Below are positions 7,854-35,511 of a stretch of 37,932 bases of DNA, piece by piece. The position numbers and the translations under genes were made by a program. Every line of letters begins with the position of its first letter. The stretch's first letter is position 1. This stretch comes from Micromonosporaceae bacterium (GTDB taxonomy: Bacteria > Actinomycetota > Actinomycetes > Mycobacteriales > Micromonosporaceae), in assembly GCA_009380105.1 (NCBI GenBank), contig WHSM01000004.1, forward strand, positions 1 through 37,932, given 5' to 3'. The notes under the pieces are model-generated. The model searched no databases. It was not told where the DNA came from and worked only from the letters and a program-made list of their open reading frames with translations.

Positions 7854-7946
7854 GTCGCGACCTCCCACGGATTCGCTTCCCCCAGCATCGTGCCTCACCG
7901 CCGGCCGACGCGTGCGGAGCCGTGCCGGCGCGTCCGCGCCGCGGAC

Positions 7947-9062
7947 TCAGTCGGAAGGCAGCAGATGGGCGTTGACGTCGCGCGCCGCGTCGGCCAGATC
8001 GGCGATCTCCACCACCTCGACACCGGCCTGCCGCAGCCGCTCGTCGCCGGTTCCGTCCACGAACCGGGCCGGTTCGCGCAGCGCGTACACCACCCGGCGA
8101 ACTCCGGCGGCGACGGTCAGCTCGGCGCACGGACGGGGCCGGGACGCACGCGCGCCGCACGGCTCCAGCGAACTGTAGAGGGTGGCGCCGGGCAGGCGCG
8201 AATCCTCCGGGTCGACCTTGCGCAAGGCGGCTTCCTCGGCGTGCTCGATCGGGTCGCTTTCGCGGGACCAGCCGGCCGCGATCTCGGAACCGTCGGCGGC
8301 GACCAGCACGGCGCCCACCGAGAACGCCGTGCGCGACGGCGGGCAGCGCCGGGACAGCGCGATCGCTCTGGTCAGCCACTCACGGTCCGCGGGCCGCTCA
8401 GTCACCGCGTACCGCATCAACACACAGTCACCGACGCGCCGGGTCTCGAGCAGCGTCAGCGACCCGGCCGGCGCCGAGCCGGGGCGCAGCCACCGGGGCG
8501 CGTCGGCGTCTCCGACGAGCCGGGGCGCCACAGTCAGGTGCAGCTCGTCGGCGAGCCCGGCCGACAGGAACCAGCTCAGGATCCCGCCGCCGCCCTCCAC
8601 CATCAGCCGTTCCACGCCGCGCCGCGCCAGGTCGCCGACGATCCAGGCCAGCTCCGGGTCGGCGCCGGCGTCGATCACCGCGGCCCGCCCCGCGAGGCGG
8701 GCGTCGAGCTTCTCGGCGGCGCCGCTCGCGGCGTACACGAGCTTGGGGGCCTCGCCGAGTGTGAAAAACCGGGCCGCCGGATCGAGGTCGCCGCTGCGGG
8801 TGATCGTCACCTTCGCGGGATCGGGCGCCAGGCCGCGTTCGGCTCGCGCCGCCTGCCGCGCCTGCGACCGCAGCACCAGTCGAGGATCATCTCTGCGTAC
8901 GGTGTTCGCGCCGACCAGGATCGCGTCGACACCTGCCCGCACCTCGTCCACCCGGTCGAGGTCGGCTTCGCCCGACAGGATCAGCCGCTCCGGCGAGCTG
9001 TCGTCGAGGTAGCCGTCGACCGAGATCGCGCAGCTCAGGAGCGTGTGCGGCCGGTGGATCAC
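7947..9062 (-). CDS. Fused RibD-C-type reductase (N-terminal) plus cytidine/deoxycytidylate deaminase-like domain (C-terminal)
   Basis: Likely GTG start at 9062: VIHRPHTLLSCAISVDGYLDD...LMVEGGGGILSWFLSAGLADELHLTVAPRLVGD (RibD_C/DHFR-like) followed by HAEEAALRKVD...SSLEPCGARASRPRPCAE (HAE / PC...C zinc deaminase). Confidence 0.82.
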   Translation of the reverse strand: MIHRPHTLLSCAISVDGYLDDSSPERLILSGEADLDRVDEVRAGVDAILVGANTVRRDDPRLVLRSQARQAARAERGLAPDPAKVTITRSGDLDPAARFFTLGEAPKLVYAASGAAEKLDARLAGRAAVIDAGADPELAWIVGDLARRGVERLMVEGGGGILSWFLSAGLADELHLTVAPRLVGDADAPRWLRPGSAPAGSLTLLETRRVGDCVLMRYAVTERPADREWLTRAIALSRRCPPSRTAFSVGAVLVAADGSEIAAGWSRESDPIEHAEEAALRKVDPEDSRLPGATLYSSLEPCGARASRPRPCAELTVAAGVRRVVYALREPARFVDGTGDERLRQAGVEVVEIADLADAARDVNAHLLPSD

Positions 9063-9156
9063 ACTTTCACCGTACTCACACGCCGACAAGACCATGATCA
9101 GCAGGCCGCGCCGCAGCACCACGAGCCGACACCGTCGCGGCCGCAATGGTGAGGGT

Positions 9157-9172
9157 GATATCATGCGATATC
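9157..9172. promoter_or_regulatory. Putative vapBC operator GATATC-ATGC-GATATC
   Basis: Two GATATC sites separated by 4 nt, immediately before the AGGAGGTG ribosome-binding site of the antitoxin gene. Confidence 0.5.
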
Positions 9173-9185
9173 TAGGAGGTGACCG

Positions 9186-9407
9186 ATGCCGAATGTGCTG
9201 GTTCGTGATGTCCCGGAAGACGTGTTGGCGGCCATTGACGCGCACGCTTCCCGCCTCGGCTTGTCGCGCAGCGAATATGTCCGTCGCCAGTTGAGCCAAG
9301 ATGCGGAGCGCTCGGCGGCTTCGGTGACGAGCGAGCATCTTCGGCGGTTCGCCGCCACATTCGGCGACCTGAGCGATCCTGACGTCATGGCGGAGGCCTG
9401 GAGGTGA
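9186..9407 (+). CDS. VapB-type ribbon-helix-helix antitoxin
   Basis: [43 protein letters not shown] = RHH; strong AGGAGGTG RBS; followed by PIN gene. Confidence 0.88.
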
Positions 9408-9417
9408 CGCGTCGGTC

Positions 9418-9828
9418 ATGACCACAAGACACTGGTTGGTCGACAAGTCGGCACTTGTCCGTCTGGGCGCCAGCCCGGAGGTCGACGTTTGGGCTGCTCG
9501 TATCGAGCGGGGACTCGTTCGAATCACGACGGTGACACTCCTAGAGGTCGGCTACTCCGCCAGGTCGGCTGATGCCCTCCGATCCGGCATGCGGAACCCT
9601 CCGATCTCAGCCATGCCTGTCGAGTACGCCACTCCTGCGATCGAGGATCGCGCGGTCGAGGTGCTCGCGCTGCTGGCCGATCGAGGACATCATCGGGCGC
9701 CTTCGGTCCCGGACCTGCTGATTGCGGCGGCAGGCGAACTTGCCGGACTGACGGTCCTCCATTGCGATAAGGACTTCGAGTTGATCGCCGATGTCACTGG
9801 CCAAGATGTGGAGCGCTTGGACCCCTGA
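9418..9828 (+). CDS. VapC-type PIN domain ribonuclease toxin
   Basis: [16 protein letters not shown]...[13 protein letters not shown]...[40 protein letters not shown] = PIN fold acidic motif set. Confidence 0.92.
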
Positions 9829-13540: not shown

Positions 13541-16867
<3,327 letters not shown>

Positions 16868-16955: not shown

Positions 16956-18680
16956 TCATGGCAGGATGATGCGCCAGATCAGGATGGCTGCGACGGACAA
17001 CAGGATCGCCACGCTGGCCACCGTGAACAGCCACACCGCGCCCAGCAGGCCGCGCCGCAGCAGCCGGTGGTGCAGCGGGACCTCGTCGGTGTGCTCGGCG
17101 GCGGCGCTGACCGGCTCGGCTGCCAGGCCCACCACCGGGGCCACCCGGTCCCAGCCACGCCGGCCCTGCAGCGAACCTTCCGCCAGCCATCGCAGCGGCT
17201 CGACCAGCCGCTCGGACGGCAGGTCCAGGCCCGAGCCGAAGTAGCGCACCTGCCGCGCCGTGCGGTCCAGAGTGCGCATCGGGTTGCCCCAGCCGACCCA
17301 GCTCAGCCAGTCGCGCACCTGGTCGGCGGCGACCGAGCCGGGGCCGAAGCCGTCGGCGAGCGGCTGGCCCACCGAGGTCCGGCGGATCGCGTCGATCTTG
17401 GTCACCACGATCGCGACCCGGTCCAGTCGTCCTCCGTCCGGCCTGGTGCGGAGCGCCCCGACCAGCCGGTCGATCACGTGCGCCGGGTCCTCGGCCGAGG
17501 ACGTGACGTCGGCCAGCCGCTCCACCTCGGCGTCGGTGAGCGAGCGGCGCACGCCCTCCAGCGAGAGCGGGTCGACGATCACCAGCATCCCGCCGGCCAG
17601 GTCCAGGTAGCGCTGCCAGCCGATCCGGTCGGAGGTCGTGTAGTGCTCGCCGGGCGGGTCGAAAAGATACAGCAGGCAGCGCCCCGCGCCGTTCAGTTCC
17701 ACGTCCAGCACCGTCGCCTGCGGCAATTCCACGGGGGTACGCGGCACGCGCCCGCCCTGACGTAGCGCCGCGAGTCGCGCGGCGAAGGTCTCCGCTTCGC
17801 GCGGGTCGCTGAAGTGCACCCGCCCTTCGCCTTCCCTGAGCGCCCCGATGGCCAGGTGGGCGTACGTGCTCTTGCCGGCCGCCGGCCCGCCGACGATCGG
17901 CATGTGCACCAGGGGAGCGTGGCCGATGCTGCCGGCCAGCGGCCGGTGGCAGTGCGGGCAGGACGCGGCGAGCCGGCTGCGTCCCAACAGCACCGACGTG
18001 GGCAGCCCGGCGCCGCAGCGGCACATCCGCCGGAGCGCGCCGTGCCGGCCGGGCCGCAGATCCCGGTGCGCGGCGCCGCACCGCGGGCAGGTGTGCTCGG
18101 GGCGCGGGAAGGAGCGGTAGCAGCCCGGATGCGGGCACGCCGGCCGGGTGCGCCGGACCGAGACCAGCGCTCCGTCCAACCCTCGCATCAGGCCGACCCC
18201 GGCGAACTGCGCCACCGTGGCGAGGCCGGCGATCACGGCGTACACACCGGAGACGAGCAGGACCACGACGGCGCAGCCAACGGCAGCGGCGAGCAACCCC
18301 GTGACCACCGCGAGCCAGATCGGGGCCAGCAGGATCGCCTGCCAGCCGCCGACGAGCATCTGGGTGGCGCCGGCGCCGAGCAGCATCGCCGGCCGGCTCA
18401 CGGCGATCACGGTGTCCGCGAGCACCGCGGCGTAGTCCCGCCAGACCTGACCGGCCAGGTAGTGCGCGAACGCCGGCTCGTCGACGCTGGCAGACACCGG
18501 CGACGGGCCGTCGGCGAGCTTCGAGGTGAGCACTCGCCAGGCGCTGCTCAGGTACCGCAGCACGAACGCCGACATCGCCGCCGCGAACATCAGCCCCGCG
18601 AGGCCGACCAGCACCGGCCAGGCCAGCCACCACAGGAACGCCACGACGGCGGCCAGCAGCACCAACAGCGGGACACGCAT
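16956..18680 (-). CDS. Membrane-anchored zinc-ribbon P-loop GTPase (TRAFAC-like / double-GTPase type)
   Basis: N-terminal TM segments; CPHPGCYRSFPRPEHTCPRCGAAH...CRCG...CPHCHRPL zinc ribbons; VGGPAAGKSTYAHLAIGAL (G1), LYLFDPPGEHY (G3), IVVTKIDAIR (G4); C-terminal [32 protein letters not shown]. Confidence 0.8.
   Translation of the reverse strand: MRVPLLVLLAAVVAFLWWLAWPVLVGLAGLMFAAAMSAFVLRYLSSAWRVLTSKLADGPSPVSASVDEPAFAHYLAGQVWRDYAAVLADTVIAVSRPAMLLGAGATQMLVGGWQAILLAPIWLAVVTGLLAAAVGCAVVVLLVSGVYAVIAGLATVAQFAGVGLMRGLDGALVSVRRTRPACPHPGCYRSFPRPEHTCPRCGAAHRDLRPGRHGALRRMCRCGAGLPTSVLLGRSRLAASCPHCHRPLAGSIGHAPLVHMPIVGGPAAGKSTYAHLAIGALREGEGRVHFSDPREAETFAARLAALRQGGRVPRTPVELPQATVLDVELNGAGRCLLYLFDPPGEHYTTSDRIGWQRYLDLAGGMLVIVDPLSLEGVRRSLTDAEVERLADVTSSAEDPAHVIDRLVGALRTRPDGGRLDRVAIVVTKIDAIRRTSVGQPLADGFGPGSVAADQVRDWLSWVGWGNPMRTLDRTARQVRYFGSGLDLPSERLVEPLRWLAEGSLQGRRGWDRVAPVVGLAAEPVSAAAEHTDEVPLHHRLLRRGLLGAVWLFTVASVAILLSVAAILIWRIILP
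16983..17097 (-). repeat. Copy C of the repeated TM-segment sequence (copy A 9881..9995; copy B 13439..13540)
   Basis: Hand alignment with copy A: 100 of 115 nt identical, including a 36-nt exact run gcgcccagcaggccgcgccgcagcagccggtggtgc (9936-9971 / 17038-17073). Confidence 0.75.
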
Positions 18681-18684
18681 CGCG

Positions 18685-20763
18685 CTAGCTCCCGGCCGGG
18701 CGCCGGAACACGGCCCGCCAGCCGCCGCCGGCGTCGTTCACCATCGCGCGCAGCTCGTCGGCCAGGCCGGGGCCGCGGCCGCCCATCGCGCTGTGCACCC
18801 GGCGAAACGCGAACGGCCGCCGCGCCAGGGCCACCAGGTACTCCGTCAGTGGCGGCACCGCGACGTCGAGCGCACGCAGCCGCACCGCGATCTCGGCGAG
18901 ATCCGTCCGGGTGGCCGGCTCGTCAGGGGTGTGGGACAGCCAGTCGGCGACCAGCAGCTCCCGGGACCGGGGCGACGCGGCGCGCAGCACCGCGAGGCGG
19001 GTCGCCACCGGCTGACCGGCCAGCTCGGCCGCGGCGCGGCGCAGCGTACGGCTGGCCAGCGCCGGGTCGGCGTGCGGACGCCACCAGGTCAGCCGGTCGA
19101 GGTGCTCGGCGATCCGCTCCGGGGCCGCCTCGTCGGCGCAGCATTCCACGGCGCCAGCGGCCGCGAGCACGGCCCGCGCGCCTGCCGCGAGCGCGTGCGG
19201 CTGGGCGGGATCGGCCACGGCGGCGCTCGCGGGCCGCTCTGACGGATCGGCCGGGGGATCGGCCGGGCCGGGGGGCCCAGGTGGCGGCCACTCCTCGTCC
19301 GAGCTGGTCGGCGCCGGGTACCGGCTCGCGACGGCGCGCGCCAACTGCGACGTCGACCCCTCGGCGAGGTCCGCGTTCGCGAACGCGCGCGCCACGATGT
19401 CGCGCACCGCCGCGTTGTCGGCCGTGACCGCGAGATCCGGACCGGCGTGGTGACGATCGAGCCGTTCCAGCAGGCGCACGCACTCGACCGGGCTCGGGTC
19501 GGCGTCGGCCCACAGGTCGGCGACGTCCTGCGCCACGTCGGGCGAGTCGGGGGCGCCCAGTTCGACTAGGCGCTCGGCCATCTCGGCCCTGCGCTCCCGG
19601 TGCCGGCGGCCGTGACGCGAATAGACCAGCCGCGCCACGGATGGCGCCGCCGACCAGTCCCGGTCCACCAGCAGGTCGGCGAGCTGCTCGCCGCTGCTCC
19701 CGTCGAACAGCGCCGTGACGGCCCGCTCGTCCGCCGCCGTCAGCGACGCGGCAGTGCGGTCCAGCAGCCGCGCCCGGTCGATCTCGGGAAGTGCGTCCAG
19801 CAGCCGCAGCGCCGACCCCTGGTGCTGGTCGTCCACCGGCTCGCCCCGGCACAGCGCCAGGAGCGCGGCGGCCGCGTCCAGGCCCCCGCCCCGCGCGGCG
19901 CCGCGGCCCGCTGACCGCACCCCGGTGGCGGCGACAGCGCAGAGGGTGTCGATCGCGGCGAGGTCGCCGGCGCCCCACGCCTCGGCGGCCGCGTGGGCGT
20001 ACGGGCTCGGCGGCTCCGGAAGCCGCTGTGCGGGCGGTCCGGCCCGGCCGCAGTCCGAGAGGACGTACGCCGCGCCGTCGCTGCGGCTGGCGGCCCACGC
20101 CGCAGGGGTGGCGCCCACCAGGTGATGCCGGGCCGCGAGGGGGTCGCTGGTGTACGTCACGAACGACATCGTCCGCGTCACCCCGAACGGCAGCGAGTAC
20201 GACACGGCCGCGATCCACAGCGCGATCCGGTCCACGTCGTCGCTGATCAGCATCACCGGCCCGGCCTGGCCGGCCAGGGTGTCCCGCGCCGCGTCGATCA
20301 GCGCGGCCAGCAGCCGGTACGACTCCGCGCCACCGGCGGCGAGCAGCAGCGACACCCGCTCGGGGTCGATCGCCGCTCCAGGGGCGAGCGCGTCGACGGT
20401 CGGCAACGAGTCGGCGGGACGGCGCGCCCACCACGGCGCCCGCCACAGCTCGATCGGGCGCACCCCGTCGAGCTCGTCAGGGTCGGCCACCACGGCGTGG
20501 CCGAGGAAGTTGCCGGGGCGGCCGGTGTAGTCGGCGCCGAGATAGCGGCAGCACACCGCGATCGCGCCGTGAGGCGTGTGGTCGTACGCCAACGAGACCG
20601 GGCACTGCTCGACCGCGAGCCCGGCAGGCGGCCGGTACGTCATGAACCGCTCGATCAGCCGCTCCGCCTCGACCGGCGCGCCGGGGCTGCGGGCGGTGAA
20701 CTGGAACCCGGCGCGGTCGGTGACGCCTCGTGGCACCGACGCGTAGTGAAGTTGGTGAGCCAT
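18685..20763 (-). CDS. GTPase-associated protein 1 (GAP1)-like protein
   Basis: 692 aa; MAHQLHYASVPRGVTDRAGFQFTARSPGAP... N-terminus recalls the GAP1-N2 type found next to bacterial double-GTPases; 4 nt from the downstream GTPase gene. Confidence 0.7.
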   Translation of the reverse strand: MAHQLHYASVPRGVTDRAGFQFTARSPGAPVEAERLIERFMTYRPPAGLAVEQCPVSLAYDHTPHGAIAVCCRYLGADYTGRPGNFLGHAVVADPDELDGVRPIELWRAPWWARRPADSLPTVDALAPGAAIDPERVSLLLAAGGAESYRLLAALIDAARDTLAGQAGPVMLISDDVDRIALWIAAVSYSLPFGVTRTMSFVTYTSDPLAARHHLVGATPAAWAASRSDGAAYVLSDCGRAGPPAQRLPEPPSPYAHAAAEAWGAGDLAAIDTLCAVAATGVRSAGRGAARGGGLDAAAALLALCRGEPVDDQHQGSALRLLDALPEIDRARLLDRTAASLTAADERAVTALFDGSSGEQLADLLVDRDWSAAPSVARLVYSRHGRRHRERRAEMAERLVELGAPDSPDVAQDVADLWADADPSPVECVRLLERLDRHHAGPDLAVTADNAAVRDIVARAFANADLAEGSTSQLARAVASRYPAPTSSDEEWPPPGPPGPADPPADPSERPASAAVADPAQPHALAAGARAVLAAAGAVECCADEAAPERIAEHLDRLTWWRPHADPALASRTLRRAAAELAGQPVATRLAVLRAASPRSRELLVADWLSHTPDEPATRTDLAEIAVRLRALDVAVPPLTEYLVALARRPFAFRRVHSAMGGRGPGLADELRAMVNDAGGGWRAVFRRPAGS

Positions 20764-20766
20764 CCC

Positions 20767-22023
20767 TTATCCGCGGTTTCTCCGGTTCGCCTCCAGCAGA
20801 CCGCGTCCCGCTTCCCGGAGACCGCCGGCGCCCGCGCTGCGGCTCGCCTCCAGCATCCCGAACCGGTGCAGCAGCCACAGCAGCGGATCCTCCACCCGGT
20901 ACGGGCGGATCCCACCCGGCCCGACGCTGTCCCCTTCGGGGATCCCGCCGAGCGCGGACAGCCCGAAGAACGCGTGCTCCGCGTAGTTGTGGTCGAGGTA
21001 GTTGTCCAGGCCTTCGGTGTGCCAGTGGTGCATCATCGCGCGCACCTGCTCGTGCACCGCCTCCCGGTCGTCGGCGTCCAGTTCGGCGGTGCGGGGCCGC
21101 GGCCGGTGCAGCGGCGACTGCTGCTCCAGCGACGGCTGCAGCACGTCGATCTTGGTGAGCGCGATCGCCATCGGCACTTTCAGCCGCTGCCCCGGGCGCA
21201 GTTCGTGGCCGGAGCGCAGCGTCTCGGTGACCCGGCTGAGCACGTGCAGCGGGTTCGCGTCAGGGGAGTGCTCGTCCGCCGGCCGGGCCTCGGCGCGGGT
21301 GTCGGCGGCGGCGCCTGGCAGTTCGAGGGGATCGACCAGGAAGATGATCGCGTCCGCGGCGGTGAGGTACCGCAGGTGCAGGTCGACCAGGTCGCGGCGG
21401 CCCAGGTCCTCGCCAGCGGTGTCGAACAGCACCAGCGTCAACGACGTGTCCTGCCGCCGGAACCGCTTGTGCCTGGTGCGGCTGAGCAGGTACACCATCG
21501 GCCACCGGATCGCCGTGGCGGCCGACTGGGTGGTGGGGAGCAGCCGGTGCTCGCCGAACAGCGGCTTGGCGAAGTCGCGCTGGTAGCGGTCGATGGTGCG
21601 GTCGTCGCACGCGACCAGCGAGGTCTGCAGCTCGCTGCCGAGCCGATGCTCCAACTCGTGCAGCAGCACCGAGATGTAGGTGCTCTTGCCGGAGTTCTTC
21701 GCGCCGACCAGGGCGACGATCTTGCCGGGGGTCTCGCAGTACTGCGCCGGAAGCTGGTTGTGGCACGCCGGGCAGACCCGCTTGAACGTCTCCTGGCGGC
21801 AGGCGGGGCACTCGGCCCGCTGCCGCCGGCCGTCGGCGTCGAACACCGGCGGCAGCGTTGCGGCGACCGTGGAGCCGAGATAGTCGGCGAGCACCGTGTC
21901 GACCTCGGGCGGGCAGCCGCTGCCTCTGCCCGGAGCGCCGCCCTGGCAGCGGAACCGGACACTGCGCCGCGGCGACATCGTGAAGCAGTACGGGCACGTG
22001 ATCGGCTGCGCTCTGACCGTCAT
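20767..22023 (-). CDS. Zinc-ribbon P-loop GTPase (TRAFAC-like / double-GTPase type), soluble
   Basis: CPYCFTMSP...CPACRQETFKRVCPACHNQLPAQYC; VALVGAKNSGKSTYISVLLHEL (G1); LVLFDTAGEDLGRRD (G3); IALTKIDVLQ (G4). Confidence 0.82.
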   Translation of the reverse strand: MTVRAQPITCPYCFTMSPRRSVRFRCQGGAPGRGSGCPPEVDTVLADYLGSTVAATLPPVFDADGRRQRAECPACRQETFKRVCPACHNQLPAQYCETPGKIVALVGAKNSGKSTYISVLLHELEHRLGSELQTSLVACDDRTIDRYQRDFAKPLFGEHRLLPTTQSAATAIRWPMVYLLSRTRHKRFRRQDTSLTLVLFDTAGEDLGRRDLVDLHLRYLTAADAIIFLVDPLELPGAAADTRAEARPADEHSPDANPLHVLSRVTETLRSGHELRPGQRLKVPMAIALTKIDVLQPSLEQQSPLHRPRPRTAELDADDREAVHEQVRAMMHHWHTEGLDNYLDHNYAEHAFFGLSALGGIPEGDSVGPGGIRPYRVEDPLLWLLHRFGMLEASRSAGAGGLREAGRGLLEANRRNRG

Positions 22024-22025
22024 CG

Positions 22026-23933
22026 CTACCGCCCTCGCAGTTGCACGACCGGGGGATCCCGCAGCTCGACGGAGTCGTCCGCCGCGAAGCAGCGCACCCA
22101 GTACGGTCCCCGCGGCGCCGGCAGCCGCAGCCGCACCGGCTGGTCCGGGGCCAGCGTCACGTGGTCGAGTTGCCGTAGCACCTCGCCGTCGGAGGCGTGC
22201 AGCGGCATCACCGTGCCGCGCCGCAGCACCACCATGAGGCGCCGCAGTCGGGCCGGCGCGCCGGCCGTGACCGCCACGGTCAGCTCACGCCGCCACGGCG
22301 GGCCGGTGCGGGTCACCTCGTACCAGGCCTCGACGCGTCCCGGGATCCGCACTCGCAGCGGCGGGCCCTCGACCCGGTGGCCGTCCAGGGGAGCCATCGG
22401 CGCCAGCGTGATCTCCATCGGCGCGTTGTGGGCGCCGTTGCTCGCCACCTCGCCGAGGGGCAGCCAGGCGCCGCCCTGGGACCGGTACGCGCCGCGTGAG
22501 ACCAGCCGTTCCCGCCACGGGTGACCGGCGATCTGCCATCGCACCGCGACCTCGGTCAGCTCGGTCGGCCACTGCCAGCGGACCACGACCTCGTCGCCCG
22601 CTCGGTCCGCGGAGACGTCGGCAGGCGCCGGCAGGGGAGCATAAGCGGCCAAGGGAGCGTGGGCGGCTGGGGAGACCGGCTGCGCGGCGTGGTCCGGCGC
22701 CGCAGGGCGCGGGGCGTCACGGGACGGCTCGTCGCCGTGCGTGAGCTTCGCAGCGGGCTCCGCCGCGCGATGCCGCCCCGGAGCCACCTCGGCCGGTGGT
22801 CCGGTGGTGGCGCCGGCCGGCGTGCCCGTCGCGGTCGTCGAGGCCGCCGGCGTGGCCGGTGGCGTCGCCGACAACGGGCCGGCAGGGGAGAGGGCTGGCG
22901 CCGGGACCGTGGCTGGCGGGGCCGGCGCCGGTGGCGGCGCTGCCGGCGGGGTCGTTGCTGGCGGGGTCGCAGTCGGGGGAGCGGAGGCGCCGCCGTTGGC
23001 GGGCTCGGCGCGCACCGCGAACGCCATCCGCCGCGCGTCGTCGTCGGCCAGGCCCAACGTGTTCGAGGCGTACGCCACCAGCGCGTTCGCCGAGGCTCCC
23101 TGACGGTGCCGGGCCCGCAGCTCCTCGGCGACCTCGTACCGCACCAACTCCGAGACCCCGGCAGGGCCCGAGCTCTCCAGCAGACCCTTCAGCGCCACCA
23201 GCACGGTGCTCGCGAGGGTCTTGCTGCCGTCGTGCGGCCGCGCTGCCCAGGCGCGGTCGGCGGCTCCCACCGTCTCGTCGGAGATCCGCCGCTCCGGCCG
23301 GTCGGCGAGCGCCACCGTGTCCCAGACCGCGATCCGTCCGTCCTGGGCGGCGTGGTCGTCGCCGAAGCCGAAGACGAAGTCGGCGGCGTGCCGGCACCCC
23401 AGGGTGCGCAGCGCCTCCCGGTACCGCCCGTACGCGGCGACCGGCGCCTGCGGCGGCAGCGGATCCGGCTCGCTGACCCGCACCCCGCGATCCAGCAGCA
23501 CGGCGGCGATCTGGCCCGGCTGGATCGCGTGGTGGGCGGCGAGCTCGTTGGCCGCCTCCGGGGTGATCCGCTTGACCGGGCCGGCGATGTCGTCCACTTC
23601 GGCCGCGAGGCCGCCCAGCCGGTCCGCGCCGCGCGCGGCGGCCTCCGCCAGCGCGGCCTGCAGCGGCCCGAGGTCGCCGGCCTTGGCCTTCTCGAACGCC
23701 GGCGCCAGCCTGGCGTGGTCGGCTTCGAGCCGGGTCACCGCCTTGCGGAACTTCAACTCCCGGCGAGCCCGCCGCCAGCACGCCAGCACCGCCGGCAGCG
23801 TCTCCGCGACCTGGGCGACGCTCAACGGCAGTGTGAGCTGGTACCGCGCCAGCAGGTCGCCGGCCGGCGCGCCGTCGGCCAGCCGCGCAGGCTCCAGCAC
23901 CTGCTGGGCGTAGCGTTCCTCGTCGAACGTCAT
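22026..23933 (-). CDS. Operon protein with helical N-terminus, long Ala/Pro/Thr linker and Fn3/beta-sandwich-like C-terminus
   Basis: Linker PPTATPPATTPPAAPPPAPAPPATVP...; C-terminus VVVRWQWPTELTEVAVRWQIAGHPWRERLVSRGAYRSQGGAWLPLG is Fn3-like; 2 nt from the next gene. Confidence 0.65.
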   Translation of the reverse strand: MTFDEERYAQQVLEPARLADGAPAGDLLARYQLTLPLSVAQVAETLPAVLACWRRARRELKFRKAVTRLEADHARLAPAFEKAKAGDLGPLQAALAEAAARGADRLGGLAAEVDDIAGPVKRITPEAANELAAHHAIQPGQIAAVLLDRGVRVSEPDPLPPQAPVAAYGRYREALRTLGCRHAADFVFGFGDDHAAQDGRIAVWDTVALADRPERRISDETVGAADRAWAARPHDGSKTLASTVLVALKGLLESSGPAGVSELVRYEVAEELRARHRQGASANALVAYASNTLGLADDDARRMAFAVRAEPANGGASAPPTATPPATTPPAAPPPAPAPPATVPAPALSPAGPLSATPPATPAASTTATGTPAGATTGPPAEVAPGRHRAAEPAAKLTHGDEPSRDAPRPAAPDHAAQPVSPAAHAPLAAYAPLPAPADVSADRAGDEVVVRWQWPTELTEVAVRWQIAGHPWRERLVSRGAYRSQGGAWLPLGEVASNGAHNAPMEITLAPMAPLDGHRVEGPPLRVRIPGRVEAWYEVTRTGPPWRRELTVAVTAGAPARLRRLMVVLRRGTVMPLHASDGEVLRQLDHVTLAPDQPVRLRLPAPRGPYWVRCFAADDSVELRDPPVVQLRGR

Positions 23934-23949
23934 CGCTGGGCTCGGGTCG

Positions 23950-25569
23950 CTAGTTCACTCGTACGTGGGACAGGCTGGCACGGGACCGGGCGACGTCCTC
24001 GGAGGACATGCCGCCGACCTGGATCTCCAGGTCGAGCCGGCTGCGCTCGCCCGGCTGCCGCTCGCCGGACTGCTCGGCGGCGGCGACGTGCAGCAGGCCG
24101 CTGGCGTCGAGGTGGAAGGTCACGTCGATCGGCCACCCGGCCGGCTTGCCGGGCGGCACGCCGATGGGCCCGGACGCGATCATCTTGTTGTCGCCGGGCG
24201 CCTCGGACTCCACGCTGCCCGCCTGCTCCATCACCTGCACCCCGACCTCGCCCTGGTCGTCGTAGACGGTGTAGAAGGTCCGGGTGGCGTCGACCGGCAG
24301 CGCGTCGTTGCTGTGGATCAGGTGCACCACGTGCTCGGACCCGGTCTCCGCCGAGTAGCAGAGCACGCCGAACCCGCGCGAGGCGACGGTGCGGATCTGC
24401 CGCTTCGCCATGGCCTGCTCCTGGCTGGCCGACAGCCCGGCCCACCGCGCCATCCGCTCGGCCCGCTCCTTGCCGTCAGAGCCGGCGCTCAGCAGCCGGC
24501 GGTAGGTCTCCTCGAACGCGTACAGCGCGGCGCCCTTGGCCACGGAGAGGTCCGGATCATGGAGTTTCGGCGCAGCTTTCAACACCCCGCCCAGCTCCTT
24601 GCGCAGCCGCTCCACCACAGCCGGCATTTTGGCCGAGCCGCCGACCAGCACCACCTCGTCGAGGCGCCTCACGCCGCGCTTGCGGGCCACGTCGAGGGCG
24701 CGGCGGGTGATGTCGACGGTGCGGTCGAGCAGGTCGCTGGTCATCTCCTCGAACTGCTGCCGGGTGAGCGTGACCGCGGCGACCCGGCCTTCGTGGACCA
24801 CCCGCAGCGTGCGCTGCCGGGCAGTCGACAGGCGCTTCTTGGCCTCCTCCACCTGCGCGCGAATGTCCTGCACGGTGGCGGGGTCGTCGAGCGGGTGGGA
24901 CGTGTCGGGGTGCTGCTCCACGAACGCCTCGACGACGTACTCGGCGAGCCGCTCGTCCCAGTCGACGCCGCCCAGCTCGTGGTCGCCGTCGGTGCACACC
25001 ACCTGGATGTCGCCCTCGCGCATGCTGATCACGGTGGTGTCGAAGGTGCCGCCGCCGAGGTCGTACACCAGGATGGTGCGGTCCGCGTCGGGCGCCAGGA
25101 CGCCGTAGCTGATCGCGGCCGCGATCGGCTCGGAGAGCACGTCGATGACGTTGAGCCCGGCGATGTCGCCGGCCTTGCGGGTGGCGTCGCGCTCGGCGAT
25201 GCCGAAGTAGGCCGGGACGGTGACGACCAGGTCGGTGACCTGCTCGCCGGTCGCGGCCTCGGCGTCGGCGGCCAGCTTGCGGAGCAGAAACGCCGAGATC
25301 TCTTCCGGGGTGTACGTGCGGCCGTGCATCTTCAACGTGAGGTGCCGCCCCATCTCACGCTTGATCAGCTCAATCACCAGATCGGGCTCCAGCACCGCGG
25401 TGTCCTTGGCGGCGGCCCCGACGACCACGTCCTCGGGGGACTCGAAGTACACCGCCGACGGCGTGGTGTCGCTGCCTTCCAGGTTGCGCAGCACGACAGG
25501 GCGCCCGCTTGAGTCCACGTACGAGATGCACGAGTACGTGGTGCCGAGATCGACTCCGAAGACGGCCAC
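23950..25569 (-). CDS. Hsp70 family protein (DnaK-like, short C-terminus)
   Basis: MAVFGVDLGTTYSCISYVDSSGRPVVL...VVTVPAYFGIAERDATRKAGDIAGLNVIDVLSEPIAAAISYG...YDLGGGTFDTTVI...VVLVGGSAKMPAVVERL; ends soon after the substrate-binding beta domain. Confidence 0.95.
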   Translation of the reverse strand: MAVFGVDLGTTYSCISYVDSSGRPVVLRNLEGSDTTPSAVYFESPEDVVVGAAAKDTAVLEPDLVIELIKREMGRHLTLKMHGRTYTPEEISAFLLRKLAADAEAATGEQVTDLVVTVPAYFGIAERDATRKAGDIAGLNVIDVLSEPIAAAISYGVLAPDADRTILVYDLGGGTFDTTVISMREGDIQVVCTDGDHELGGVDWDERLAEYVVEAFVEQHPDTSHPLDDPATVQDIRAQVEEAKKRLSTARQRTLRVVHEGRVAAVTLTRQQFEEMTSDLLDRTVDITRRALDVARKRGVRRLDEVVLVGGSAKMPAVVERLRKELGGVLKAAPKLHDPDLSVAKGAALYAFEETYRRLLSAGSDGKERAERMARWAGLSASQEQAMAKRQIRTVASRGFGVLCYSAETGSEHVVHLIHSNDALPVDATRTFYTVYDDQGEVGVQVMEQAGSVESEAPGDNKMIASGPIGVPPGKPAGWPIDVTFHLDASGLLHVAAAEQSGERQPGERSRLDLEIQVGGMSSEDVARSRASLSHVRVN

Positions 25570-25587
25570 TATGTTGTCCTCCCCGAG

Positions 25588-26262
25588 CTAGCTGGTCTCG
25601 TGCCCGTGTGGGCGCTTGCTGTTCTTGCCGGCAGTCGACGCCCCCGGGACGCTGGGGGTCTTGGTCGCGATCCTGCTGGCAGCCTTGCGTTTCGAGGCAC
25701 GGAGCTGCCCGACGACCACGTCAGCGCGGCGGACTGTCTTCTCGCCCTGGCAGAAGCCGTTGTTGAGGGTCCGCACCACGGCGCCGTCCAGGGCGGGGTC
25801 GGTGACGTCGGCGGTCTCGATGGGCCGGTGCCGGCAGGGATCGTACGGCTCGCCAGGCGTCGGCTCGAACGGCTCCACGCCGGTGCGTGCCAGCACCTCG
25901 GCGATCTCCTCCGCGATCGCGGCGAGCAGCGGGCCGGCGTGCTCGGAGTCCGGCGGCTGCGGCCCGGTCCAGCGCTCGGCTTCGCGGCGGGACATGTCGT
26001 ACAGCCGGTACAGCCCCATGCGGACCGGCTCCAGCATGTACTCGAGCTCGCGCCGGCGGAGGGTCTGGTTCTCGGCGTGCAGCCGGTCGATGACCGACTC
26101 GCGGTGGGCCGCCCGCTCCTGTTCCCGGTCGGTGAGCACGGCCACCGCCTCGCGCAGTGACACCAGCTCCGCGAGCACCGGGGCCTGATCGGCGTGCCGG
26201 TCTGGCTCCTCGGCGTGCTGGTCGGACGCGGACACCGCGCCGTCGGCGGAGTGAGACTGCAC
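25588..26262 (-). CDS. GrpE-like nucleotide exchange factor
   Basis: Helical N-terminus then EYMLEPVRMGLYRLYDMSRR...PFEPTPGEPYDPCRHRPIETADVTDPALDGAVVRTLNNGFCQGEKTVRRADVVVGQL (GrpE beta-wing pattern); immediately upstream of hsp70. Confidence 0.82.
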   Translation of the reverse strand: MQSHSADGAVSASDQHAEEPDRHADQAPVLAELVSLREAVAVLTDREQERAAHRESVIDRLHAENQTLRRRELEYMLEPVRMGLYRLYDMSRREAERWTGPQPPDSEHAGPLLAAIAEEIAEVLARTGVEPFEPTPGEPYDPCRHRPIETADVTDPALDGAVVRTLNNGFCQGEKTVRRADVVVGQLRASKRKAASRIATKTPSVPGASTAGKNSKRPHGHETS

Positions 26263-26468: not shown

Positions 26469-27233
26469 TCACGGCCTGGCGTACCGCAGGAGCAGGTTTC
26501 CGTCCGCCTCCAACACCTGTGTCAGGTCGAGCCGCCGCACCGGAGAACCCGGCCCCGCGACGATCCGGCCGGCGCCGCTGCCGGCCAACAGCGGCGCCAC
26601 TGTCAGGCACAGCTCGTCGACCTGGTCGGCGGCGAGCAGCGACCCCAGCAGCTGGGGGCCGCCTTCGCAGAGCGCCTGCGTCAACCCGCGCTCGGTGAGC
26701 GCGGCCCGCGCGGCTGCCAGGTCCACCTCCGCGTCCCCGGCGATCAGCACGTCGGCGACCTCGGCGAGTCGACGCCGCGCGTCCGCCGGTGAGCCCTCGT
26801 GGGTGATCACGAGAGGGCGGACCGGCGCCTCGGCGAACACAGGGCTGGCCGGATCCAGCGCCAGCCGGCTGGACACCACCGCCAACACCGGAACCTCGGG
26901 CAGGCCGGCCTCGCGTCGCCAGCGCCGTCGCTCCGGATCCAGGCGCAGCGCCCGGTAGCCCTCCTCCCGCACCGTGCCAGCGCCTGCCAGCAGCACGTCG
27001 CAGAGCATCCGGAGCAGGCCGAACACCCGCTTGTCCGCGGGGGAGGACAGCCCTTCGGAATGGCCTTCGACGGTCACGGCGCCGTCCGCGCTCGCCACGA
27101 AGTTGACCCGCAGCCAGGGAGCGGAGCGGTCAGCGCGCTCGTACCGTCCGATCAGGTCGGCGTGGGAGAGCCCGGCGTGAGACTCACCGGCGGACGGCGC
27201 GGGGTCCGGGCCGGCGGGCCAGAGCTGCCGCAC
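26469..27233 (-). CDS. Pyrimidine reductase / RibD C-terminal domain family protein
   Basis: GTG start at 27233; LRVNFVASADGAVTVEGHSEGLSSPADKRVFGLLRMLCDVLLAGAGTVREEGY...ALCEGGPQLLGSLLAADQVDELCLTVAPLLAG. Confidence 0.88.
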   Translation of the reverse strand: MRQLWPAGPDPAPSAGESHAGLSHADLIGRYERADRSAPWLRVNFVASADGAVTVEGHSEGLSSPADKRVFGLLRMLCDVLLAGAGTVREEGYRALRLDPERRRWRREAGLPEVPVLAVVSSRLALDPASPVFAEAPVRPLVITHEGSPADARRRLAEVADVLIAGDAEVDLAAARAALTERGLTQALCEGGPQLLGSLLAADQVDELCLTVAPLLAGSGAGRIVAGPGSPVRRLDLTQVLEADGNLLLRYARP

Positions 27234-27238
27234 GCCTG

Positions 27239-27934
27239 TCAGATCTTGTTCCCGATGGCGACCCGCGGCCTCGGGATCCGCATCCGGCGTATGGTCAGCG
27301 ACCGCATGATCGCGTAGAAGTACAGCCCCGCCTTGCGCTGGCCGGTCTTGGGATGCCGCTCCCAGACGACCCGCCCGATCGTCCGGCACAGCAGCGCGCT
27401 GTCGACCATGACGGCGATCAGCAGCACGGTCCACAGCATGTTGAACATGTCGCGGATCGGCTGGGAGACGCCGGGCCAGGTGCCGATCAGAATCACGACA
27501 GCGCCAGCGAAGAACCAGGTGCCGATGTTGCGGCGGGCGTCGACGATGTCCCGGGTCAGCGCCCGCTCGGGCCCACGGTCGCGCGCCGGGAGGTACTGAT
27601 CCTCACCGCGCATCAGGCCTTCGCGGGCAGCCGCCCGCTCGGTCCGCTGCTTCTGCCGCATCCGCCGCATGGCGGCCTTGCGGTCCTGCGGCGGCGGCTC
27701 CGCGGCGCGTTTGCGGGCTTCCTTCCGCTTCGGGGTCGCTCGCCCTTTTCCAGGGGTGTACGCCTTCGGCTTGACGCCCGCGCGCGGGCCCGCTGAACCC
27801 TGGTCGCTCTGCCCGTCGGCGTCGGCGTCGTCGTCGGCGATCTGGTCGGGCTCGTCGGCGATCCGGTCGGACTCGTCGGAGGTGACGGACGGCTGGGTCG
27901 CGGTCCGGCTGCGGCGGCGGAACAGAGATGGCAC
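27239..27934 (-). CDS. DUF3043 domain-containing membrane protein
   Basis: GTG start at 27934; VPSLFRRRS...YTPGKGRATPKRKEARKR...GEDQYLPARDRGPERALTRDIVDARRNIGTWFFAGAVVILI...AGLYFYAIMRSLTIRRMRIPRPRV. Confidence 0.88.
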   Translation of the reverse strand: MPSLFRRRSRTATQPSVTSDESDRIADEPDQIADDDADADGQSDQGSAGPRAGVKPKAYTPGKGRATPKRKEARKRAAEPPPQDRKAAMRRMRQKQRTERAAAREGLMRGEDQYLPARDRGPERALTRDIVDARRNIGTWFFAGAVVILIGTWPGVSQPIRDMFNMLWTVLLIAVMVDSALLCRTIGRVVWERHPKTGQRKAGLYFYAIMRSLTIRRMRIPRPRVAIGNKI

Positions 27935-30542: not shown

Positions 30543-30704
30543 AACCCTCCCCACCGATCGGGGTCAGCGGTCTTGACCGGCCCGTCACGCCGAGTAGTGT
30601 GTGGACAATAAATTTCAGGGGTCTTTCCTATTTGAAGGATAGTTCCTCACGCCCGGTATGCGGGGTCCGGACACAAAGACATGGAAGCGAGGACACGCGC
30701 CATC

Positions 30705-32519
30705 ATGCACACCACACGCCGCGGATGGCGGGGGCTGGCCACGATGCTCGCCGCCGTCGCCGTCGCACTGGCCCCCACGGCAGGCGCATCCGCCGAAACG
30801 CATAAGAAGGAATCGGACACCCTCGTGATCGCGCGAGGGCAGTCCATAGACAGCCTCAACCCGTACTTCGCGCGAAACGTGATCGACTTCGAGACCCTCG
30901 AGCTCAGCTACGAGACGTTGGTCCGGCTCAGCGCGAAGGACTACAGCTACGTGCCAGGGCTCGCCACCAAGTGGGAGACCTCCGCCGACGGCCGCGCCTG
31001 GACGTTCACCATCCGGAAGAACTCGAAGTGGTCCGACGGCAAACCGGTCACCGCGCACGACGCGGCCTTCACCTACCAACTGCTGATCGACAACGAGGAC
31101 ATCCACACCCGGCATGTCGACTTCGCCAGCAAGCTGGAGTCCGTCGAGGCGACCGACGACCACACGCTGGTCATCACCACCAAGGAGCCCACGCCGCTGG
31201 TGCCGTCGCGCTACCTGCCGATCATCCCGAAGCACATCTGGGAGAAGGTCGACAACCCGGCCGAGCACGAGAACAACGACCCGCCGCTGGTCGGCTCCGG
31301 GCCGTACCAGATGGTCGAGCACGTCACCGAGCAGTTCATCCGGTTCAAGGCGAACAAGAACTACTGGGACGGCAAGCCCGAGTTCGACGAGCTGGTCTTC
31401 CGGTACTACAGCAGCCCTGACGCGGAGGTCGCCGCCCTGGAGTCCGGCGAGGTCGACGTCGTCGGCTACGGGTCGCTGACGCCAGCTCAGTTCAAGTCCC
31501 TCAAGGGACAGGACGGCATCACCGCCAACGCCGCCCAGAACCGGCGTTTCGTCTCGCTCGTGCTCAACCCCGGGGCCCGCACCAAGGACGGCAAGCGGTT
31601 CGGCGACGGCCACCCGGCGCTGCGGGACGTCAAGGTCCGGCAGGCGCTGCACACCGCCATCGACAAGTCGCAGCTGGTCGACCGCGTGCTGGACGGCTAC
31701 GGCGACCCCGGTGTCGGCCCCGTGCCCAAGATCTTCGAGACGCTGCACTGGGACGGCGGCGACGAGCTGATCACATTCAACCTCGAAGCAGCGAACAAGA
31801 TCCTGGACGACGCCGGATACGAGCGCGGCAAGGACGGCATCCGCACGATGCCGAACGGCTCCAAGCCGTTGAAGTTCCGGCTCTACGCGCACTCCGACAA
31901 CCCCGCGTACGCCAGCATCGCCAAGTTCCTCGAAGGCTGGTGGAAGGATCTCGGCATCGAGGTCCAGACGGAGTCGATCGAGCAGGGTCCGCTCAACGAC
32001 AAAAACTACCTGGGCGAGTACGACATCTCGTTCTCCGGCTGGGGCATCAGCCCGGACCCGGACTTCCTGGCGATGCACACCTGCGCGGCCCTCCCCGGAG
32101 TCACCGACGGCACCGAGCGGGCGCACGAGACGTTCTACTGCAACCCCGACTACGACAAGCTGCAGGACCAGCAGACGCAGGAAACCGACGAGGCGGAGCG
32201 CGCCAAGCTGATCAAGGAACAGCAGCGGATCCTCTACCGCGACTCGCCGCAGATCTACCTCTACTACCAGAACCAGCTGGAGGCGTACAACAGCGCCAAG
32301 ATCGAGAGCATGGCGGTCCAGCCGGCCGACGGCGGTCTGATCACAGGCCAGTCGAACTTCCTGTGGGCGTACCACTCGGCGCGGCCCGTCGGGAGCGGCG
32401 CCGACAGCGAAGGCGGCGGTTCCGGCGCGCTGATCGCGGGCATCGTCGTCGCGCTGCTCGCCGCCGGCGCCGTTGGGTTCTACGTGATGCGACGCCGCAC
32501 CGCCGGCGAGCGGGAGTAA
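30705..32519 (+). CDS. ABC transporter substrate-binding protein, family 5 (peptide type), with C-terminal TM anchor
   Basis: SAETHKKESDTLVIARGQSIDSLNPYFARN...WTFTIRKNSKWSDGKPVTAHDAAFTYQLL...PLVGSGPYQMVEH; C-terminal GALIAGIVVALLAAGAVGFYVMRRRTAGERE; no lipobox Cys. Confidence 0.92.
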   Translation: MHTTRRGWRGLATMLAAVAVALAPTAGASAETHKKESDTLVIARGQSIDSLNPYFARNVIDFETLELSYETLVRLSAKDYSYVPGLATKWETSADGRAWTFTIRKNSKWSDGKPVTAHDAAFTYQLLIDNEDIHTRHVDFASKLESVEATDDHTLVITTKEPTPLVPSRYLPIIPKHIWEKVDNPAEHENNDPPLVGSGPYQMVEHVTEQFIRFKANKNYWDGKPEFDELVFRYYSSPDAEVAALESGEVDVVGYGSLTPAQFKSLKGQDGITANAAQNRRFVSLVLNPGARTKDGKRFGDGHPALRDVKVRQALHTAIDKSQLVDRVLDGYGDPGVGPVPKIFETLHWDGGDELITFNLEAANKILDDAGYERGKDGIRTMPNGSKPLKFRLYAHSDNPAYASIAKFLEGWWKDLGIEVQTESIEQGPLNDKNYLGEYDISFSGWGISPDPDFLAMHTCAALPGVTDGTERAHETFYCNPDYDKLQDQQTQETDEAERAKLIKEQQRILYRDSPQIYLYYQNQLEAYNSAKIESMAVQPADGGLITGQSNFLWAYHSARPVGSGADSEGGGSGALIAGIVVALLAAGAVGFYVMRRRTAGERE

Positions 32520-32528
32520 CCCGCTGAA

Positions 32529-33587
32529 ATGGCGTCAGATCCGAGCCTGCTGGCCGGGCCGTCCCCAGACGGCCCGGCCAGCGGCGGGCTCTCCGGGGAG
32601 AAGACAGCGGGCGGCAGCGGCTTCGGCCGCTATCTCCGCGGCCGGCTGACCGGCTCCGTCGCCTCCTTGGTCCTGGTCTACCTGTCGTCGTTCTTCATCT
32701 TCCGGGTGCTGGGCGGCGACCCCCTCCAGGCGATCGCCAAGGACCGGCGGATGACGCCGGAGGAGCGGGCGGCGCTGCGCGAGCAACTCGGCCTCGACCA
32801 ACCGCTGCTGGCTCAGTTCGGCAAGTACACCGCCGACGTGTTCAGCGGGAACTTCGGCACGTCGTACCAGTACCGGCGCCCGGTCATGGAGTTGGTGCTC
32901 GAACGGCTGTCCGCCACCGTGCTGCTGACGGGCACAGCCCTGGTGCTGTCGGTCGCGGTCGGGCTCTGGGTCGGCGCCCGGGCCGGCTGGCGGCACGGCA
33001 GCCGCCTCGACCGCGCCCACGTCGGCGTCTCGCTCACCTTGTGGTCGGCGCCCACGTTCTGGCTCGGCATGATCGTCATCATGATCTTCGCCCGGCAGTT
33101 CGGGCTGTTCCCGGTCGGCGGGATGGTCTCGCACAACGTCGGGCCCGGACTCCTCGCCGAGACGCTCGACGTGGCGCACCACCTCGTGCTGCCGGCGATC
33201 ACCATGACGGCGGTGATCTACGCCCAGTACGTGCTGGTCATGCGCTCGTCGATCCTCGACGAGATCGGACACGACTACCTGACGACCGCGCGGGCGAAGG
33301 GCCTGCGCGACGACCTGGTCCGGCGGCGGCACGCCATCCCGAACGCGCTGCTGCCGACCGTGACGCTGGTCTTCCTCCAACTCGGCGGAGTCATCAGCGG
33401 GGCGATCGTGACCGAGACGATCTTCAGCTGGCCCGGCCTGGGCCGGATGGTGTTCGAGTCGATCGGCTTCCGCGACTTCCCGGTGCTGCAGACCACGTTC
33501 GTGTTGTTCTCGGCCGCGGTGATCGTCGCCAACATGTGCGCCGACATCGCCTACTGGTTCCTCGACCCCAGGGTGCGCAAGGCATGA
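32529..33587 (+). CDS. ABC transporter permease, DppB/OppB type
   Basis: LVYLSSFFIFRVLGGDPLQAIA...LREQLGLDQPLLAQFGKYTADVFSGNFGTSYQYRRPV...DYLTTARAKGLRDDLVRRRHAIPNALLPTVT. Confidence 0.94.
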   Translation: MASDPSLLAGPSPDGPASGGLSGEKTAGGSGFGRYLRGRLTGSVASLVLVYLSSFFIFRVLGGDPLQAIAKDRRMTPEERAALREQLGLDQPLLAQFGKYTADVFSGNFGTSYQYRRPVMELVLERLSATVLLTGTALVLSVAVGLWVGARAGWRHGSRLDRAHVGVSLTLWSAPTFWLGMIVIMIFARQFGLFPVGGMVSHNVGPGLLAETLDVAHHLVLPAITMTAVIYAQYVLVMRSSILDEIGHDYLTTARAKGLRDDLVRRRHAIPNALLPTVTLVFLQLGGVISGAIVTETIFSWPGLGRMVFESIGFRDFPVLQTTFVLFSAAVIVANMCADIAYWFLDPRVRKA

Positions 33588-34510
33588 GCGCTCAGTCATC
33601 CGGTCAGACCGCATTGACGTCCGCGCGGGCTATCGCGTGGGCGCGCCGGAGGGCGGCGCTCGCCGGCTTCTGGCGCGAGTACCGCACGCAGCGCACCGGC
33701 CTGGTCGGTCTGGCGTTCCTGCTCATGGTCATCGCCCTCGCCCTGGCGACCCCGTGGGTCACCGACGCCGGAGGGCTCGATCCCACCAAGGTGCACGGCG
33801 GCCGGCTCGACGCGCCGAGCCTGGCCTACCCGCTCGGCACCGACGAACTCGGGCGGTCGGTGCTGCTGCTGACACTGTGGGGAGCCCGGGTGTCGCTCCT
33901 CGTGGGCGTCACCGCGACGCTGCTGGCCATAGTGATCGGCTCCCTCGTCGGGATCCTCGCTGGCCACTTCGGCGGCTGGACGTCCTGGGTGCTGATGCGG
34001 CTGGCGGACTGGTTCATCGTGGTGCCGACGCTGGTGCTCGCGATGGTGCTGCTGCTGGTGCTCGGCTCCAACCTGTTCACCATCATCGTGGTGATCGGCG
34101 TCGCCTCGTGGGCTGGCACCGCCCGGCTCATCCGGGCGCAGACGCTCGCCGTCGAGGGGCGGCCGTACCTGGAGCGGGCGCGTGCCCTCGGCGCCGGCCA
34201 CTGGCACCAGATGAGCCGGCACGTGCTGCCGAACGTGATGCCGTTGGTGCTGGCCAGCACGACCTTGCAGGTCGCCAGCGCGATTCTGCTCGAGTCGACG
34301 CTGTCGTTCCTCGGGCTCGGCGACCCCAACCAGATCTCCTGGGGCACGATGCTGCACCGCGCGTACGAGGCGGGAGCGGTCTCGTACGGCGCGTGGTGGT
34401 ACCTGCTGCCGCCGGGCCTCGGCATCCTGGTCGTGGTGCTCTGCTTCACCCTGTGCGGGCGGGCCATGGAGTCCGTCGTCAACCCGAGGCTGCGAGGAGG
34501 GGGACGATGA
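33584..34510 (+). CDS. ABC transporter permease, DppC/OppC type
   Basis: In-frame ATG at 33584 (ATGA overlap); YPLGTDELGRSVLLLTLWGARVSLLVGV...ERARALGAGHWHQMSRHVLPNVMPLVLAS...LLESTLSFLGLGDPNQISWGTML. Confidence 0.94.
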   Translation: MSAQSSGQTALTSARAIAWARRRAALAGFWREYRTQRTGLVGLAFLLMVIALALATPWVTDAGGLDPTKVHGGRLDAPSLAYPLGTDELGRSVLLLTLWGARVSLLVGVTATLLAIVIGSLVGILAGHFGGWTSWVLMRLADWFIVVPTLVLAMVLLLVLGSNLFTIIVVIGVASWAGTARLIRAQTLAVEGRPYLERARALGAGHWHQMSRHVLPNVMPLVLASTTLQVASAILLESTLSFLGLGDPNQISWGTMLHRAYEAGAVSYGAWWYLLPPGLGILVVVLCFTLCGRAMESVVNPRLRGGGR

Positions 34511-35511
34511 CCCTGCTCGAGGTCCGGGACCTGCATGTCACCTACCACAGCTCCCGCGGCGTCATCCCGGCCGTGCGTGGAGTGGACATCACCGTCGAAC
34601 CGGGGCAGACGCTCGGCGTCGCCGGCGAGTCTGGCTGTGGCAAGTCGACGCTGGCTCTGGCGCTGCTCCGGCTGCTGCCCAAGTCCGCGGAGGTCACCGG
34701 CCAGGTGCGACTCAACGGCGACGACGTGCTCACCATGACGTGGGGTCAGCTGCGAGCCGTCCGGTGGGCCGGCGCGTCGATCGTGTTCCAGGGCGCGATG
34801 CACTCGCTCAACCCCGTCCATCGAGTCGCCCGGCAGATCGCCGAGCCGATCCTGCTGCACGAGAACGTCTCAGAGGCCGAGGCGCACGGTCGCGCCGTCG
34901 AGTTGCTCGGCCAGGTCGGGTTGCCCGCCTGGCGGGCCCGCAGCTATCCCCATGAGCTGTCGGGTGGGCAGCGGCAACGGGTCATGATCGCCATGGCGCT
35001 GGCCTGCGAACCCGACCTCATCATCGCGGATGAGGCCACCACAGCGCTCGACGTCATGGTTCAGGCCCAGGTTCTCGATCTCATCGCGGACCTGGTCGCG
35101 CAGCGCGGCGTCGGCCTCGTCATGATCAGTCACGACCTTTCCGTCCTGTCGGCGCATTGTCAGCGCGTGGCTGTCATGTACGCGGGCAAGGTGGTCGAGC
35201 TCGGCGCCGCACACGACGTGTTCGCTGACGCGAGGCACCCCTACTCCGACGCCCTCGCGTCCGCCTTCCCGGTGATCGGCGACGTGGCGGCCCGACACCG
35301 GCCGCGCGGTCTCGGCGGGGACCCTCCCGACCCGGCAGACCTTCCGGGTGGCTGTTCGTTCCACCCACGCTGCCCAGTGGCGGTCGCAGAGTGCCGGGCT
35401 GCCGAACCGCAGCTGCTGCCCATCGGCGCCTCACCCCGGCTGTCCGCCTGCTTCGTCGCGCAGCAGGGCAAGCCGGTCCGTCCCGGCACGGTGAAGGAGC
35501 CCGTCACATGA
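34507..35511 (+). CDS. ABC transporter ATP-binding protein, DppD/OppD type
   Basis: ATG at 34507 (ATGA overlap); [79 protein letters not shown]-terminal Cys motif. Confidence 0.95.

Follow-up and report, generated by a model that had tools for sequence, protein, structure and literature searches.

GAP1-N2 DO-GTPase systems were described by Kaur, Burroughs, Iyer and Aravind (eLife 2020; PMC7159879), who, in the passages of that paper considered here, recognized an "HSP70/GrpE theme" among them and predicted them to be conflict systems. In the open-access literature that was searched, no experimental study of GAP1-N2 DO-GTPase systems and no experimentally tested member of the predicted class was found. 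The window, i.e. the whole stretch of 37,932 nucleotides that was analyzed, carries an operon which shares with the theme, as far as the passages considered describe it, HSP70, GrpE, an Fn3 protein, two DO-GTPases and a GAP1-N2 protein with GAP1-M. The operon is almost certainly a GAP1-N2 double-GTPase system of the HSP70/GrpE theme. Consequently, the gene combination, which the original prediction had put forward as an uncharacterized system, is explicitly described as a class in these passages and is not new in itself. Our best reading, which we hold tentatively, is that of a membrane GTPase switch which is remodelled by a dedicated lidless Hsp70 and which serves a core cell function in Actinomadura.

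Composition of the operon

Between positions 16956 and 26262, six minus-strand genes are separated by intergenic gaps of only 18, 16, 2, 3 and 4 nt, exactly as the original prediction had placed them, and read in 5' to 3' direction on the minus strand they encode GrpE, Hsp70, the Fn3 protein, the soluble zinc-ribbon DO-GTPase, GAP1 and the membrane DO-GTPase. Codon-position GC supported all six ORFs as real genes (third-position GC of 0.92-0.96) and marked the long plus-strand ORFs overlapping them as spurious. Five of the proteins gave Pfam matches, all above the cut-offs: the GrpE-type nucleotide exchange factor P0001 (224 aa, 25588..26262; PF01025, 5.6e-10, residues 31-185), the Hsp70 P0002 (539 aa, 23950..25569; HSP70, 9e-105), the soluble GTPase P0004 (418 aa, 20767..22023; DO-GTPase2, 2.2e-9), the GAP1 protein P0005 (692 aa, 18685..20763; GAP1-N2, 2.6e-34, and GAP1-M, 1.2e-17) and the membrane GTPase P0006 (574 aa, 16956..18680; DO-GTPase2, 5.6e-15). 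The predicted family assignments were thereby borne out, for the Fn3 protein P0003 (635 aa, 22026..23933) by AlphaFold and Foldseek; the lack of a DnaJ gene in the operon was confirmed as well, and the predicted link to GAP1/double-GTPase systems agrees with Pfam and with the passages of Kaur et al. 2020 (PMC7159879). As GAP1-N2 systems require, a GAP1 with N2 and M is encoded downstream of a DO-GTPase, and the HSP70 and GrpE genes required for the HSP70/GrpE theme are present in the neighbourhood. No HspR-type heat-shock operator was found in the window, and a search for RNA elements returned none.

Both GTPases of the window retain an intact P-loop, DxxGE and xKxD, with a glutamate after Walker B as in DO-GTPases. 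In P0004, which according to the alignment bears two N-terminal zinc ribbons, these motifs are GAKNSGKS at residue 107, DTAGE at 201 and TKID at 290, and P-loop and DTAGE recur in 81 of 81 soluble-GTPase sequences. The corresponding motifs of P0006 were located at 264 (P-loop), 341 (DPPGE) and 427 (TKID). Hydropathy analysis of P0006 unveiled hydrophobic stretches at residues 1-45 and 107-165, each long enough for two helices, and at 543-574, consistent with a predicted anchoring by four N-terminal and one C-terminal TM helices; its zinc ribbons sit between the N-terminal hydrophobic stretches and the GTPase domain, and a check of the zinc-ribbon and TM features of the DO-GTPases revealed CxxC motifs. 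The pair thus matches the DO-GTPases in the passages considered from Kaur et al. 2020 (PMC7159879), one with zinc ribbons and one with four N-terminal and one C-terminal TM segments.

The AlphaFold model of P0005 (pLDDT 89, pTM 0.80) comprises an N2 domain of beta-beta-alpha-beta-beta-beta topology with short helices, an alpha/beta M domain and an alpha-solenoid C-terminus (254-686). GAP1-N2 and GAP1-M were both matched in all relatives of two scans (43/43 and 55/55). The top PDB match was a chain of the FLCN-FNIP2-Rag complex, at poor scores (E 9e-3, TM 0.12), and no longin/DENN sequence-profile match to GAP1-N2/M was obtained; the topology of the model recalls longin-DENN, which we take as a weak lead.

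The lidless Hsp70 and the Fn3 protein

P0002 consists of the ATPase domain and SBD-beta, has no SBD-alpha lid and possesses a non-canonical linker around residues 351-396. Aligned with the genome's own DnaK, it ends soon past SBD-beta with the entire lid absent, and at the position of the VLLLD linker it contains a longer insert ending in I-x-T-V-A instead. Neither lid nor VLLLD linker was present in any of 20 aligned operon Hsp70s from several families, and among 74 near-relative Hsp70s the canonical linker was found in none and the lid was likewise absent. All 74 retain the ATPase motifs (phosphate-1, K70-region, E171-region and DLGGGTFD), and 69 of them are 527 aa long. Since the genome also possesses a canonical DnaK and two general DnaJ proteins, separate from the operon, the operon Hsp70 is regarded as a dedicated paralogue.

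Lidless DnaK binds and releases 10-100 times faster, and yeast Ssz1, an Hsp70 without lid and without canonical linker, does not hydrolyze ATP and is bound by its dedicated J-protein Zuo1 (PMC7083937). A lidless Hsp70 should therefore show weak and rapid client binding, or else carry a built-in partner, in the way Zuo1 is held by Ssz1. Judged from its sequence, the operon Hsp70 would thus be a fast, low-affinity or a partner-occupied chaperone. A lidless Hsp70 that has an active ATPase but no canonical linker and is paired with GrpE and two GTPases would constitute an unusual chaperone cycle, and the specialized Hsp70 provides a concrete biochemical handle on the system.

A productive Hsp70 cycle normally requires a J-domain partner. 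No J-domain was found in any of the operon proteins, a point against the reading of a chaperone-remodelled switch, although the two general DnaJ proteins of the genome could serve as J-partners of the operon Hsp70. The AlphaFold model of the Fn3 protein P0003, built on 44 sequences, shows a helical N-terminal domain (1-314), a disordered Pro/Ala-rich linker and two Fn3-like sandwiches (438-630), with a mean pLDDT of 83 and domains above 90. The C-terminal beta region gave Fn3 pairs as best matches among solved structures (Foldseek, best E 5e-5), and although P0003 itself has no Pfam match, Pfam fn3 was detected at 9.6e-10 in its counterpart of the distant locus L053. No match was obtained for the helical N-terminus. 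In the passages considered from Kaur et al. 2020 (PMC7159879) the Fn3 protein typically occurs as a fusion with DnaJ or TPR, whereas in the operon family Pfam detected DnaJ in 0 of 54 Fn3 proteins scanned and TPR-model matches only weakly in a few; P0003 is also devoid of a TPR match.

A hidden J-domain in the Fn3 protein was considered and rejected. Apart from the missing Pfam match, profile comparison with the genome's own DnaJ gave 1% probability, the first 125 residues of 44 relatives contained an HPD-like motif in one isolated case only, and the loop joining the first long helices of the P0003 model comprises two residues only.

Distribution and evolution

A genome scan with the soluble-GTPase alignment returned 349 relatives, and the loci of the best 80 were analyzed. 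These best 80 belong nearly all to Actinomadura, Thermomonospora, Sphaerisporangium, Nonomuraea, Actinoallomurus and others, of an order which we take to be the Streptosporangiales, with the addition of MAG RSA1. All complete loci among the best 80 of 349 hold the six genes in identical order and strand, the incomplete ones being cut by a contig end or an assembly gap, and most junctions in the complete loci are shorter than 30 nt or overlapping. GrpE is the first gene in 74 of these 80 loci (the others are cut by contig ends), and the same order holds in more distant loci of other families. Such a six-gene cluster is far beyond chance. The operon postulated from the short gaps was hereby substantiated, and the proposed inspection of other genomes revealed homologues which co-occur almost invariably rather than rarely.

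That the operon only combines two unrelated modules under a shared promoter, namely a spare Hsp70 with its GrpE and a unit of DO-GTPases and GAP1, appears very improbable. GAP1-N2 loci without Hsp70 exist (e.g. L063, L064, L077 to L079), and the GTPase unit is thus able to occur by itself, but all complete loci among the best 80 of 349 have one invariant order with junctions that are short or overlap, and the Hsp70 is structurally specialized in all members. In the distant members L052, L053, L058 and L095, where one Hsp70 in each case measures about 500-530 aa, a second Hsp70 gene lies beside the operon and perhaps corresponds to the second HSP70 mentioned in the passages considered from Kaur et al.

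Within Actinomadura (counted as the genus containing Actinomadura sp. WMMA1423 and BRA 177, an assignment based on coinciding coordinates) 64 of 65 genomes gave a match and 62 of 65, counted over the listed places, a full-length soluble-GTPase orthologue of 60-65% identity; the three genomes without full orthologue are split into roughly 570 to 800 contigs. Across the wider family, 56 of 151 genomes gave a match, weak ones included. The flanking genes, which are ordinary metabolic genes such as a class II aldolase, a PfkB kinase or an MFS transporter, are common within Actinomadura, within Sphaerisporangium and within Actinoallomurus and differ between genera, indicating vertical inheritance of the operon in those genera. 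In Actinomadura the operon is core and vertically kept, unlike a mobile defence island, which argues against such an island and not against immunity as such. With the system being core in one genus, it can be tested by simply deleting genes, and the view that it is only an anti-phage island loses weight. In the window's own family any GAP1 match was found in only four sampled relatives, all of them distant, which counts against our best reading. In the tree of Hsp70 and soluble GTPase the window groups with RSA1, and the two branch next to the Streptosporangiales clade as its sister group with a support of 0.95, separately from the versions of the window's own family; the window copy likely stems from an old transfer or from differential loss.

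Within Actinomadura, the operon proteins show mean pairwise identities of 0.91 (Hsp70), 0.85 (soluble GTPase), 0.78 (membrane GTPase), 0.74 (Fn3), 0.65 (GAP1) and 0.63 (GrpE), and for most of them the value is comparable to those of metabolic genes nearby, or higher. Median dN/dS values of 0.13 to 0.45 across the operon genes, derived from 14 close and partly non-independent pairs and below 1 in all genes, indicate purifying selection. The fastest and most discordant part is the GAP1 solenoid: its mean identity is 0.58, and it scatters most widely relative to the remaining operon (residual sd 0.054, compared with 0.049 for GrpE and 0.02 for Fn3 and both GTPases). The loci L108 and L109, for example, are 92-96% identical in Hsp70, ZnGTPase and TMGTPase and 67% in GAP1, which contains windows at 32-60% identity, the rest being at about 90%. 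A recognition role of GAP1 under diversifying or recombining evolution is possible. Furthermore, the allele discordance between sister species fits an arms race better than quiet housekeeping and in this respect counts against a core function.

The same discordance (L108/L109) of the fastest-evolving protein speaks for an anti-invader (anti-phage) conflict system, which Kaur et al. 2020 (PMC7159879), in the passages considered here, inferred from domain syntax and from the link with multicellular bacteria. Fn3 and GAP1 would sense the invader, the DO-GTPases would serve as the threshold switch, and an assembly that contains or kills the infected cell would be formed or controlled by Hsp70/GrpE; a chaperone indeed mediates phage sensing elsewhere, namely for bNACHT25 with DnaJ (PMC12169576). 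However, comparison of the six operon proteins with the PADLOC defence models gave no match at a meaningful score, the operon encodes neither a toxic nor a nuclease effector, every gene has a dN/dS below 1, relatives of P0005 are absent from plasmid records, and in Actinomadura the operon is core (62/65) and syntenic amid ordinary metabolic genes. We regard a conflict system as possible but rather doubtful.

Several observations concern the neighbouring genes. The next same-strand gene, 88 nt downstream (13541-16867, minus strand), encodes a Tricorn-type protease with PD40 propeller, PDZ and S41 peptidase. It was considered as a seventh member and rejected: no match was found in the 80 related loci (best 80 of 349) or in 51 first-round loci, and as it is absent from related operon loci, it is not part of the system. 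A 596-aa protein without Pfam match (6108-7898, minus strand) gave PADLOC mad8/HerA-like matches, and its homologue directly adjoins the operon in MAG RSA1 (L103 at 15250). Two RibD_C reductase-domain genes (7947-9527 and 26469-27434, minus strand) flank the operon, the larger one being fused to a deaminase domain; a homologue of the one at 26469 also adjoins the operon in L103. On the plus strand, oligopeptide-type ABC transporter genes were identified (30681-36524; family-5 solute-binding protein and permease), and the PADLOC mad3/mad8 matches of the gene at 35391 may reflect a shared ATPase domain only. In L107 (15390-16172) and about nine other Actinomadura-group loci the gene immediately downstream of the membrane GTPase encodes a PASTA-domain protein, a possible link to the cell wall.

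Proposed mechanism and comparison with known systems

In the tentatively preferred reading of a chaperone-remodelled membrane switch, the soluble GTPase with its zinc ribbons would pair in a GTP-dependent manner with its paralogue anchored in the cytoplasmic membrane. GAP1 would act as scaffold and regulator of this pair, its solenoid providing a variable recognition surface, and the Fn3 protein would bridge the GTPase/GAP1 assembly to the dedicated Hsp70. Cyclic assembly and disassembly of the GTPase-GAP1 complex by Hsp70 and its own GrpE would then set the threshold of the switch. In Actinomadura the role may be a vertically kept core function, e.g. surveillance of the envelope or the proteome, possibly of infection.

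SRP and the SRP receptor are likewise paired GTPases, one of them at the membrane. In an analogous membrane-protein targeting or envelope proteostasis machine the twin GTPases would be SRP/receptor-like, and clients of the lidless Hsp70 would be handed to the membrane GTPase. A soluble and a membrane GTPase of one family, the dedicated Hsp70/GrpE, the core status and the PASTA (peptidoglycan-binding) protein directly downstream in about 10 Actinomadura-group loci would all agree with such a machine. It is nevertheless unlikely: homology to the SRP family is lacking, the operon encodes no component related to signal peptides or the translocon, no translocon link was found, and the distribution is patchy outside Streptosporangiales; moreover, DO-GTPases are a separate TRAFAC family in the passages considered from Kaur et al. 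2020 (PMC7159879).

A more specific version of the membrane GTPase switch, which we consider quite improbable as a whole, would have the GTPase pair set by a lidless, Ssz1-like Hsp70 and GrpE without an own J-protein, with GAP1 as a longin-DENN/FLCN-type counterpart for paired (Rag-like) GTPases, in a core surveillance of mycelial actinobacteria.

Compared with the canonical DnaK-DnaJ-GrpE machine, the operon shares the Hsp70 ATPase core and GrpE and differs in the absence of lid, VLLLD linker and DnaJ. The resemblance to Ssz1/Zuo1 (PMC7083937) comprises the missing SBD-alpha lid, the non-canonical linker, the complete SBD-beta and a dedication to one partner, which for the operon Hsp70 is proposed. 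It is an analogy, with no homology beyond Hsp70: Ssz1 lacks ATP hydrolysis and pairs with a J-protein, whereas the operon Hsp70 has intact ATPase motifs and is accompanied by GrpE and by no J-domain. In bNACHT25 with DnaJ (PMC12169576) a chaperone component is likewise implicated in a bacterial immune switch, but host DnaJ and a NACHT protein are used, without GTPase or GAP1. Finally, the passages of Kaur et al. 2020 (PMC7159879) considered here stress variability and conflict and contain no mention of the missing Hsp70 lid and linker seen in the operon family, whereas in Actinomadura the operon is core and syntenic. New with respect to the described class are the gene order and strand, invariant in the complete loci among the best 80, the core status in Actinomadura, the lidless Hsp70 without a detectable J-domain in the operon, and the fast, discordant GAP1 solenoid.
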